Under the pieces are notes generated by a model. It was not told the origin of the DNA and did no database searches. It worked only from the letters and a program-made list of their open reading frames with translations. From the NCBI GenBank assembly GCA_030431455.1, contig JAUIJE010000007.1, positions 248,001 through 312,000 of the forward strand: 64,000 nt of DNA. Reading direction: 5' to 3'. Shown here one piece after another: positions 48,229 to 51,094 of the stretch (positions are counted from its first letter, which is position 1; each line of letters begins with the position of its first letter). The position numbers and the translations under genes were made by a program. Source of the stretch: a bacterium. Its GTDB lineage: Bacteria; Myxococcota; UBA727; JAUIJE01.

Positions 48229-48573
48229 ATGAAGAAGACCAACATTCTCCTCAGCCTCGGTTCTGCGGCTCTCCTCGCCACTGCCGTGGGCTGCTCCTCC
48301 GACGACGGCGCGAAGAAAGACGACGCCGCCGCCACCGAAAGCAACGAAGCCGCCGCCGAGGGCGACGCTGCTGCCGCCTCCGAGGGTGGTGACGCTGCCG
48401 CTGCCGACGGCGCCGCCGAGGGCGACGCTGCTGCCGCCGAAGGTGGCGAAGCCAAAGCCGAGGGCGAAGGCTCCTGCGGCGGTGACAAAGCCGCGGGCGA
48501 AGGCTCCTGCGGTGGCGAGAAAAAAGCCGAGGGCGAAGGCTCCTGCGGCGAAGGCTCCTGCGGCGGTCGCTGA
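48229..48573 (+). CDS. Bufferin-like RiPP precursor lipoprotein with four EGSCG motifs
   Basis: A 114-residue peptide. The signal (KKTNILLSLGSAALLATAVGC) ends in a lipobox with lipidated Cys22 and Ser at +2, which predicts an outer-membrane lipoprotein. Residues 23-78 are Ala/Glu/Asp-rich spacer. The core (79-114) has four EGSCG motifs, at 80-84, 91-95, 103-107 and 108-112, with Cys83, 94, 106 and 111. EGKCG-type motifs are the MNIO modification sites in HvfA and Caulobacter bufferins, where cysteines become copper-binding heterocycles; here Lys is replaced by Ser. An MNIO enzyme and a DUF2063 partner follow directly. Modification is inferred from context. Confidence 0.88.
   Translation: MKKTNILLSLGSAALLATAVGCSSDDGAKKDDAAATESNEAAAEGDAAAASEGGDAAAADGAAEGDAAAAEGGEAKAEGEGSCGGDKAAGEGSCGGEKKAEGEGSCGEGSCGGR
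48351..48438 (+). repeat. 60-bp-period tandem duplication in precursor spacer
   Basis: A 28-base word (CGCCGCCGAGGGCGACGCTG and the next eight bases) occurs at 48351-48378 and again at 48411-48438. The spacer therefore contains a 20-codon duplication with the second copy diverging at its end. Confidence 0.9.
48463..48563 (+). repeat. Four identical 17-bp repeats coding the EGSCG motifs
   Basis: GGCGAAGGCTCCTGCGG occurs at 48463-48479, 48496-48512, 48532-48548 and 48547-48563, the last two overlapping by two bases. No synonymous change separates the copies. Confidence 0.97.
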
Positions 48574-48581
48574 GCCAACCC

Positions 48582-48599
48582 GTCACACTTTTTTGTGAC
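48582..48599 (+). terminator. Small hairpin after the precursor stop
   Basis: GTCACA-CTTTTT-TGTGAC lies 9 bases after the stop. The same GTCACA/TGTGAC stem occurs after tldE (18309-18325). It may protect the 3' end of the abundant precursor mRNA. Confidence 0.45.
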
Positions 48600-48609
48600 G
48601 TGAACGGAG

Positions 48610-48645
48610 CGCACGCCCGATCAAAAGGGTGTGCGTTCTTTTTTT
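48610..48645 (+). terminator. Terminator-like attenuator between precursor and MNIO genes
   Basis: CGCACGCCC pairs with GGGTGTGCG (one G-T wobble) around an eight-base loop and is followed by TTCTTTTTTT. Placed 27 bases before the MNIO start, it should end most transcripts after the precursor gene and allow limited read-through to the enzyme genes. Confidence 0.8.
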
Positions 48646-48672
48646 GGGGCCAAGCCCCGCCGGGAGGCGCGC

Positions 48673-49524
48673 GTGCTGCCACGACTGACCACCGATACGC
48701 CCGAGCGAAGCCCCGTCGGCCTCGGCTTTCGTTTCGCGCTGGCGGAGACCTTGCTGGAGCGCGAGAGCACCAACGCCGAGTTCATCGAGGTCGCGCCCGA
48801 AAACTACGTGGGCGCAGGGGGCAAGCGCCGGCGCCTGCTCGATGCCGCCACCGAGCGGTTTGACGTCGTCAGCCACGGGTTGTGCGGGGACTTCTCCGGG
48901 GCCGCGCCCGTCGACGACGACCTGACCTTGGCCCTCAAACACTTCCTGCGCACCCACCGGGCGCGCTGGTACAGCGACCACCTGTGCCTGACCCACGCCG
49001 CCGGCGCCGAGCTGCACGATCTCATCCCCCTGCCCTTCACCACCGAGGCGGTGCAGCGGGCCGCGGGCCGCATCCGCGAGCTTCAAGACCGGCTCGACCT
49101 CCCGCTCGCGGTCGAGAATGTATCTGCATACGTGCGCATGCCGGGCGCGGAGATGGACGAAGCCACCTTCGTCAAGAGCGTGGTCGAACACGCCGGGTGC
49201 CACCTGCTGCTCGACGTGAACAACGTCTACGTGAACAGCCAGAACTTCGGCTTTGACCCCGACGACTACATCGACGCGTTGCCCCTCGACCGGGTGGTGC
49301 AAATCCACGTCGCGGGCCACCACCGCGAAGACGACGGGCTGCTCATCGACACCCACGGGGCGCCCATCATCGACCCCGTGTACGAGCTGCTCGAGCGCAC
49401 CTTGCCCAAGCTGCCCCAGCACCCCCCGATCCTGCTCGAGCGAGACCACCACATCCCCCCCCTCGCGGAGCTCGACGTCGAGCTCAAGACGTTGCGGGAG
49501 ATCGCGATCCGGAGCGCGTCATGA
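48673..49524 (+). CDS. bufB: MNIO (DUF692) multinuclear non-heme iron oxygenase, BufB/HvfB-like
   Basis: A 283-residue TIM-barrel iron oxygenase of the MbnB/TglH/HvfB/BufB family that converts precursor cysteines to heterocycles or related groups using O2. Conserved stretches are VGLGFR, FIEVAPENY (near 40), VSHG (His68), YSDHL (Asp102, His103), AVENVS (Glu148), LLDVNN (Asp181, Asn183-184), IHVAGH (His212, His216), DTHG (Asp226, His228) and LLERD (Glu256, Asp258). These supply the expected metal ligands. GTG at 48673 has GGGAGG 5 bases upstream and gives family length; the GTG at 48631 lies inside the attenuator stem. The stop overlaps the partner gene (ATGA). Confidence 0.93.
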   Translation: MLPRLTTDTPERSPVGLGFRFALAETLLERESTNAEFIEVAPENYVGAGGKRRRLLDAATERFDVVSHGLCGDFSGAAPVDDDLTLALKHFLRTHRARWYSDHLCLTHAAGAELHDLIPLPFTTEAVQRAAGRIRELQDRLDLPLAVENVSAYVRMPGAEMDEATFVKSVVEHAGCHLLLDVNNVYVNSQNFGFDPDDYIDALPLDRVVQIHVAGHHREDDGLLIDTHGAPIIDPVYELLERTLPKLPQHPPILLERDHHIPPLAELDVELKTLREIAIRSAS

Positions 49525-50246
49525 GCTTGCCCGACCTCGAACAAGCGGTGCGCGATCTCTGCTTCCGACCCGCCGCGGGCACGCTGCCCGGCGTCGACGA
49601 CCCCCACCAAGGGGTGTACCGCGATCTCGTCCGGCGCAGCCTCTACAGCAACATTCGGCGCACCATCCCCGTGGCCCGGGCGTTGGTCGGCGACGAGACC
49701 ATCGACGCCCTGATCGCGGCCTGTCTCGACGAGGCGCCCCCCACCGAACGGTTTTTTCGGGACGTGCCCCGCGGGTTTGCGCAGTGGGCCCAAACCCAGA
49801 GCGCGGAGGCCCCCGACCGATTTGTGCACCCCGGGCTGCCCGAGCTGTTGCATTGGGAAATCCTCGAGGTCGACGTGCTCCTCGCGCCGGACCCGGACCA
49901 AATCCTCGACCCCGACGACCGACCGGTGCAATTGCACCCCAGCGCGCGCCTCGCCGTCTACGCGCACCCCGTGCACAAGCTGACCAAGTCCTCGTCGTGG
50001 CCGCCCGAGCCGCTCGCGGTTCCCGTGTGCCTGCTCGCGTTTCGGGTCGGCGAGCGCATGGAGGTCGTGCCCTTGAGCGCCAAGATCGCCCAGCTGTTGG
50101 CCCTGCTGTCGGACAGCGCGGACTTCGACGCCGCCCTCGAACTGTGCGCACAAAGTCTGCCCGCCCCCTTGGACCGCGGCTACGCCGCTTCGCAACTGCG
50201 CGACCTGCACCGCCGGGGCGCGTTGACCCGTTTTTCTGCCGACTGA
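49521..50246 (+). CDS. bufC: DUF2063 partner protein, BufC/HvfC-like
   Basis: A 241-residue DUF2063 protein. The N-terminal half has the family element YRDLVRRSLYSNIRRTIPVARALVG. Further family elements are RGFAQWAQTQ, FVHPGLPELLHWEILEVDVLLAP and LHPSARLAVYAHPVHKL. The end is a small winged-helix-like domain (about 185-240). In HvfC/BufC/MbnC systems this protein forms a complex with the MNIO enzyme and recruits the precursor leader or signal region. It overlaps the MNIO gene by ATGA, so the two are made in equal amounts. Eight bases after its stop begins the nitrilase-family gene. Confidence 0.88.
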   Translation: MSLPDLEQAVRDLCFRPAAGTLPGVDDPHQGVYRDLVRRSLYSNIRRTIPVARALVGDETIDALIAACLDEAPPTERFFRDVPRGFAQWAQTQSAEAPDRFVHPGLPELLHWEILEVDVLLAPDPDQILDPDDRPVQLHPSARLAVYAHPVHKLTKSSSWPPEPLAVPVCLLAFRVGERMEVVPLSAKIAQLLALLSDSADFDAALELCAQSLPAPLDRGYAASQLRDLHRRGALTRFSAD

Positions 50247-50254
50247 GGACTCCC

Positions 50255-51094
50255 GTGACATTGCTCGCCGTGACCCAGATGACCTCGACCACCGACGTGG
50301 AGCAGAACCTCGCCACCGTCGCCCAGCTCCTCACCAAGGCCCACCAGCGGGGCGCGGAGGTGGTGGTGGTGCCCGAGGCGTTCGCGTTCTTGGGCGAACG
50401 GGACAACCAAGTGCTCGAGGTGGCCGAGCCCCTGGAGGGCGCGCTCTTTTCCCGGTACCGCGACCTCGCGCGCGAGGCGAAGACCTGGGTGTGCTACGGC
50501 GGGTTTTGTGAGCAGGGCCCCGACGACAAACACACCTACAACACCCACGTGGTGGTCACCCCCGACGGGGACATCGCGGCCCGGTATCGCAAAATCCACC
50601 TCTTCGACGTGGACATCCCCGGGGGGCCCCGCCTGCTGGAGAGCAATGGCACTGCACCCGGCAACGAACTGGTGGTCGCGGACAGCCCGGCGGGCAAGCT
50701 CGGGTTGAGCATTTGTTACGACCTGCGTTTTCCCGAGCTCTACCTCGCGTTGTGCGCGCTCGGCGCCGGGGTGCTGTTGGTCCCGGCCGCGTTCACCCTG
50801 ACCACGGGCAAGGAACATTGGGAGGCCTTGCTCCGGGCCCGGGCGATCGAAAACCAGGTCTACGTCGCGGCCGCGGCCCAACGGGGCAAACACAACGCCA
50901 AGCGCCAGAGCTTTGGCCACGCGATGATCATCGACAGCTGGGGCACGGTGGTGGCCCAGTGCAGCGACGCCAGCGGGGTGGCGGTGGCCGAGGTCGACGC
51001 CGCGTTCACCGCCGACGTGCGCCAACGCATGCCCGTGAGCGCCCACCGGCGGCCCGACATCTACGGTCAGTGCCGCGGCAAAGGCGAGCAATAA
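50255..51094 (+). CDS. Carbon-nitrogen hydrolase, Nit1/Nit2-like amidase
   Basis: A 279-residue nitrilase-superfamily amidase. The catalytic triad is complete: Glu41 (VVVPEAFAF), Lys113 (YRKIHLFDVD) and Cys154 (LSICYDLRFPE). IHLFDVDIPGG and the C-terminal VSAHRRPDIYG match the Nit branch, whose members hydrolyse deaminated glutathione (a repair reaction). GTG at 50255 has GAGGAC upstream. It starts 8 bases after bufC and is likely in the same transcript. That position may be accidental or may link thiol metabolism with the cysteine-modified peptide. Omega-amidase activity on alpha-ketoglutaramate is an alternative. Confidence 0.9.
   Translation: MTLLAVTQMTSTTDVEQNLATVAQLLTKAHQRGAEVVVVPEAFAFLGERDNQVLEVAEPLEGALFSRYRDLAREAKTWVCYGGFCEQGPDDKHTYNTHVVVTPDGDIAARYRKIHLFDVDIPGGPRLLESNGTAPGNELVVADSPAGKLGLSICYDLRFPELYLALCALGAGVLLVPAAFTLTTGKEHWEALLRARAIENQVYVAAAAQRGKHNAKRQSFGHAMIIDSWGTVVAQCSDASGVAVAEVDAAFTADVRQRMPVSAHRRPDIYGQCRGKGEQ

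Follow-up and report, generated by a model that had tools for sequence, protein, structure and literature searches.

A putative lipid-anchored HvfABC-like RiPP cluster in a Myxococcota genome and its relatives in the phylum

The window, a stretch of 64,000 nucleotides from a Myxococcota genome (7.7 Mb in 28 contigs), carries three consecutive genes that we interpret as a RiPP cluster of the HvfABC/fontiphorin kind, whose product is probably a lipoprotein acting as a membrane-fixed copper buffer. A preliminary description had proposed a precursor with a lipobox (Cys22) and four EGSCG motifs, followed by an MNIO enzyme and a DUF2063 partner whose start overlaps the MNIO stop as ATGA (positions 49521 to 49524). 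Open reading frames and Pfam searches confirm this arrangement (Table 1), and domain models, the partner fold, the MNIO tree and the relatives of the cluster bear out its HvfABC-like character. Gene content, domain assignments, lipobox, motifs, conservation and tree position are direct observations. Judged by its sequence, the cluster is of the HvfABC/oxazolin ("captophorin") type; what appears to be newly described is a Myxococcota branch of that type, predicted to be lipid anchored, with mostly Ser before Cys and two enzyme clades, and for the most part not recognized by the NCBIfam HvfA model.

Table 1. Features of the cluster and its surroundings (positions in the window)
Feature	Position	Strand	Basis or remark
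Precursor peptide (HvfA/captophorin-like lipoprotein), 114 aa	48229..48573	+	ORF, translation, relatives beside MNIO genes
SPII-type signal peptide (predicted), residues 1-21, MKKTNILLSLGSAALLATAVG	48229..48291	+	Sequence; same pattern in window-clade relatives
Cys22, predicted lipidated +1 residue; +2 Ser, +7 Ala	48292..48294	+	
EGSCG motif 1 (Cys83)	48466..48480	+	
EGSCG motif 2 (Cys94)	48499..48513	+	
EGSCG motif 3 (Cys106)	48535..48549	+	
EGSCG motif 4 (Cys111)	48550..48564	+	
Small hairpin directly 3' of precursor stop codon	48581..48600	+	
Terminator-like hairpin (48606-48639), 13 pairs, then seven T	48606..48645	+	Between precursor and MNIO genes
MNIO enzyme (DUF692, HvfB/FonB lineage)	48673..49524	+	PF05114, 302 bits; invariant residues; tree
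Partner protein, PME type 1 (DUF2063 + RRE-like C-terminal domain), HvfC-like	49521..50246	+	
Carbon-nitrogen hydrolase gene (PF00795)	50255-51094		Starts 8 bp after partner gene

Organization of the cluster

The precursor has a KK start, a hydrophobic stretch and the lipobox A-V-G-C22, its signal peptide type being called by eye and with a regular expression. An Ala/Gly/Glu spacer separates this signal from the EGSCG motifs, within which all four of the Cys other than that of the lipobox are found. When the mature precursor was shuffled, EGxCG occurred 0.03 times on average and never four times in 20,000 trials. No Pfam model, DUF2282 included, matched the precursor, and the NCBIfam HvfA domain model NF050137 scored 18.5 bits by hmmscan (cut-off 19.5) and 22.1 bits in the genome search. 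Membership in the bufferins Buf1 or Buf2 was rejected on account of the missing DUF2282 and 6/12-Cys Buf2 pattern.

RNA from 48565 to 48660 folds better than its shuffles (-46.3 versus -29.9 kcal/mol, z -4.8) because of the two hairpins between the precursor and MNIO genes. The second of these could act as a partial terminator and raise precursor mRNA above enzyme mRNA, and a similar element of hairpin and T-run is found at the same place in two loci, L007 and L008, from the same order as the window genome. Such a terminator was rejected as a general rule, the strict pattern being matched in 9 of 66 loci. A sigma-70 promoter scan returned no match. The open frame of the MNIO gene extends back to GTG 48631, which was rejected as the start owing to its position inside the hairpin; GTG 48673, preceded by GGAGG at 48663-48667, is the likelier start and would give a protein of 283 aa.

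The cluster is flanked by a methyltransferase-like gene and by the carbon-nitrogen hydrolase gene, which may be cotranscribed with it. We set the hydrolase aside as a fourth operon member, since the open reading frames next to the related clusters L022 and L025 include no such gene. At L007 (2852-3583) and L008 (2894-3661), ECF-type sigma factor genes diverge from the precursor genes. The window genome (G000) also holds another MNIO cluster on contig C2, at about 193490-195370 (L001:1174-3056), in which a lipobox precursor, an MNIO and a partner weakly matching DUF2063 follow each other; its precursor keeps to the same lipid-anchored plan but has a different motif, (ADAGCPSCG)n, and a spacer of GD repeats.

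The best NCBIfam model for the MNIO is HvfB (303 bits, equivalog cut-off 360), and the partner likewise stays below the HvfC equivalog cut-off, with 94 bits for NF050145 (cut-off 142). Across 14 aligned MNIOs, 39 columns are invariant, including residues of the HG, SDH, EN, LLD, IHxAGH, DTH and LLExD motifs. The His, Glu and Asp of these motifs, which we take to be iron ligands after MbnB and TglH, are kept in the window enzyme. The partner matches PF09836 (DUF2063) at 40.8 bits and NGO1945_C at 25.4 bits, just below the cut-off of 27. Its AlphaFold model, built from an alignment of eight sequences, has a pLDDT of 88.4 and a pTM of 0.83; in a Foldseek search, the best match of this model was 3DEE (NGO1945 of Neisseria gonorrhoeae, the gonophorin PME1; E 2.7e-5), followed by TglI and MbnC, both known MNIO partners.

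Relatives in Myxococcota

Starting from the enzyme, we searched 195 Myxococcota genomes, found an MNIO at E <= 1e-40 in 120 and read the upstream gene for about 110 MNIOs. In 66 of these loci, a lipobox precursor with xGxC-type motifs adjoins the MNIO: 7 belong to the enzyme clade of the window (the window itself, L005, L007, L008, L022, L024 and L025), 58 to the Myxococcaceae-like family f18, and one is L104. The six relatives in the window clade combine the lipobox with EG[S/K/D]CG beside the same enzyme and partner. Position 3 of EGxCG in the 66 loci is Ser in 50 instances, Lys in 24, Asp in 5, Thr in 2 and Gln in 2; the lipoprotein-type signal and the replacement of Lys by Ser, both pointed out beforehand for the window, thus recur in relatives. 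The lipobox Cys is kept in 7/7 window-clade and 58/58 Myxococcaceae precursors, a conservation that is not independent evidence for the 66 as a set, defined as it is by the lipobox; the seven window-clade loci do count as such, because every EGxCG precursor of that clade has a lipobox. Ordinary-signal precursors stand beside other Myxococcota MNIOs (e.g., L032, L043 and L099), and Buf2-like ones do so at L107 and L114, so that the lipobox is common, not universal, in the MNIO precursors of this phylum.

By contrast, none of 63 precursors of the HvfA type, taken from Gammaproteobacteria and two Bacteroidota, has a lipobox, and Lys fills 536 of their 548 EGxCG motifs; since this contrast set was sampled with a Lys-favoring motif model and the Myxococcota set by enzyme, the difference in residue is inflated, and that in lipobox less affected. 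In the sampled Myxococcota, precursors would thus commonly be lipid anchored and commonly lack the Lys of the motif. The NCBIfam HvfA model matches only 7 of 193 Myxococcota genomes, and existing family models largely miss the variant.

Other architectures were seen in the same survey. EGKCG precursors fused to EF-hand-like repeats occur at L062 and L063, in Myxococcaceae-like genomes that also have the lipid-anchored type; this Buf_EGKCG/EF-hand type is already known (PMC12452194). Upstream of the MNIO at L106 (786-1388) and L111 (794-1414, both in MNIO orientation), lipoproteins with AGCPAGCP repeats are fused to a CxxCH haem-motif domain, which in L106 weakly matches Cytochrome_P460 (22.9 bits versus 27). 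At L113 (697-1398) and L015 (552-1478, MNIO orientation), Buf2-like Cys motifs are fused to a cytochrome c domain (PF00034 in L113) directly before the MNIO gene.

The window-clade MNIOs form one clade (100/99), the Myxococcaceae lipo-type enzymes another (100/99) and the canonical EGKCG enzymes a third (100/99), the window clade being sister to the canonical one (SH-aLRT 94, wider quick tree). A single clade of all lipid-type enzymes is rejected (p-AU 0.0008), and with it a single origin of lipidation tied to one enzyme clade. Therefore, lipid-anchored precursors accompany two separate enzyme clades, a pattern that might stem from separate gains, from losses in other lineages or from precursor exchange.

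A profile of the Myxococcaceae precursors, run on 193 genomes, gave 77 strong matches (E <= 1e-13 or so), 69 of which have an MNIO within 1.5 kb. For 7 of the 8 unlinked precursors, inspection found no MNIO within about 1.5 kb, and all 7 of the genomes concerned carry a lipo-type MNIO elsewhere. In the window clade, a precursor is adjacent in 7 of 9 MNIO loci. The other arrangement is seen in genus g13, of the same order as the window genome: the window-clade MNIO/partner pairs of G013 and G014 (L006 and L004) adjoin a protein without Cys motifs, and the genes for lipobox/EGSCG proteins are on other contigs (L229 and L230 in G014, L232 in G013, L231 and L233 in G015), none with an MNIO within about 2 kb. 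In G015, assembled in 1270 contigs, no window-clade MNIO was detected. For these unlinked g13 precursors, the simplest reading would be modification in trans. The preliminary description had counted regular occurrence of homologues without an MNIO/DUF2063 pair against its proposal; such homologues do exist (8/77 and several stand-alone genes in g13), yet almost every genome concerned has a suitable MNIO at another place. Just upstream of the MNIO at L004, L006, L023 and L026 lies a gene for a small secreted protein that lacks Cys motifs (...VERWWMS...VPDxxLQ); by eye, this g13 protein resembles a protease-inhibitor/propeptide fold, with no Pfam match.

Comparison with known systems

NedA of Neisseria dentiae, an EGKCG lipoprotein that has been isolated, is tri-acylated and shifted by -4 Da per motif, -12 Da in total (PMC12636315); lipoprotein signals are also predicted for about 16% of the Buf2 bufferins (PMC12452194). 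Membrane tethering is therefore not new, and these cases contradict the earlier view that known members have only ordinary Sec signals. NedA and the window cluster have in common an SPII lipoprotein signal (predicted in the window), repeated EGxCG motifs and an MNIO with its partner, whereas NedA has EGKCG and comes from Pseudomonadota, and the window has EGSCG, a longer Ala/Gly/Glu spacer and an enzyme of a different clade. HvfABC/oxazolin (Haemophilus), fontiphorin and gonophorin share with the window the order A-B-C, the MNIO lineage, a PME type 1 partner and repeated EGxCG; unlike it, these Lys-Cys captophorins have an ordinary Sec signal, Lys before Cys and usually DoxX. The Buf1 (DUF2282) and Buf2 bufferins, despite their different precursors, follow the same MNIO and DUF2063 logic, with export and a presumed copper role, and some Buf2 are lipoproteins as well (PMC12452194). 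RiPP-lipoproteins of the DybA/chryseobasin type are also MNIO-modified lipoproteins, as predicted for the window, but differ by a CPACGMG motif and an MNIO of the ChrH family with a C-terminal domain (PMC12636315). The main texts of the captophorin literature that mentions Myxococcota hold no description of the present precursors, some of which may be listed in supplements, and literature searches for a copper response of Myxococcus in which DUF692 is named yielded no direct match.

Proposed function and alternatives

HvfA, fontiphorin and gonophorin contain 5-thiooxazole, to which an earlier oxazolone-thioamide assignment has been revised, and bind Cu (PMC13097082, PMC13419390); HvfBC favors a precursor bearing its signal peptide (PMC13419390). 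From these relatives we infer the chemistry, the copper and the order of steps proposed here. The partner would bind the precursor, with the signal peptide as part of the recognized region, as in relatives, and offer its four EGSCG motifs to the MNIO; this enzyme would carry out a four-electron oxidation of every motif Cys, with 5-thiooxazole as the most likely product. The precursor, once modified, would then be exported by Sec, acylated on Cys22 and cut by signal peptidase II, leaving the flexible Ala/Gly/Glu-rich spacer to tether the modified peptide to an envelope membrane, where its thiooxazoles might bind Cu(I) as a membrane-fixed buffer. The terminator-like hairpin may keep the precursor well above the enzyme.

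From its sequence, the product is a predicted envelope lipoprotein; the term "cell-surface" in the earlier proposal was overstated, since inner membrane, outer membrane and extracellular matrix are all compatible with this prediction. In M. xanthus, Lys at +2 goes with inner-membrane lipoproteins and Ala at +7 with the extracellular matrix (PMC3222651). The Myxococcaceae relatives have Ala at +2 in 56/58 and at +7 in 47/58. Together with the window residues, this may speak weakly against inner-membrane retention, leaving the outer membrane or matrix; the pointer is weak because Ala abounds in this region and the rule derives from another family.

The Ala at +7, in this Ala-rich region, would also fit a RiPP-lipoprotein that is not a copper buffer and serves instead another soft metal, thiol-reactive stress, or the matrix or outer membrane through some other role of its Cys. 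Within the window, no copper gene, DoxX or sigma factor lies beside the cluster, L007 and L008 have their diverging sigma factor genes instead of copper genes, and which metals these peptides are specific for is left open in the literature (PMC13097082). We nevertheless regard a non-copper role as unlikely, given that Cu binding and a response to metal stress are found for every characterized EGKCG product (PMC13097082, PMC13419390). A modification other than 5-thiooxazole at the EGSCG Cys seems less likely still. This alternative arises because the enzyme lacks FonB-type residues around the substrate: by alignment, FonB Arg15 and Asp249 are kept in the window MNIO (R34 and D272), and Arg16 and Phe250 are replaced by Phe35 and His273, the FonB positions being placed from its published description and from L029 and L027, with FonB itself outside the alignment. 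Arg16 and Phe250 flank the substrate in the FonB model (PMC13097082), and both positions differ throughout the window clade. However, single FonB mutants there still install 5-thiooxazole (PMC13097082), and the changed enzyme type also adjoins EGKCG precursors, at L022 and L024. FonBC tolerates Ala, Arg and Thr at the position of the motif Lys (PMC13097082), which makes Ser plausible there and EGSCG a plausible MNIO substrate.

An unmodified Cys-rich lipoprotein could also have come to lie by chance beside an MNIO pair acting on another substrate. The unlinked Myxococcaceae-type precursors and the g13 pairs beside a protein without Cys motifs lend this some support, but the close linkage of 69 of 77 precursors and the adjacency in 7 of 9 window-clade loci argue against it, and we consider it very improbable. 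The modified, copper-buffering lipoprotein remains our preferred reading. A broader proposal, to which we give only tentative credence, is that Myxococcota have a large Lys-poor lipid-anchored branch of their own, with at least two enzyme clades and display at the outer membrane or in the matrix, and with trans modification in some genera, where a single unlinked enzyme pair would serve several lipoproteins. If true, this branch could be part of the copper handling of these social predators outside the cell.

To date a single thiooxazole peptide, from Neisseria, has been shown to be lipid anchored; in Myxococcota such anchoring looks common, and models keyed to EGKCG miss most of the precursors there. 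The system is present in genetically tractable Myxococcaceae, which makes it directly testable whether a metallophore fixed to the membrane gives protection from copper and at which face of the envelope it would do so.
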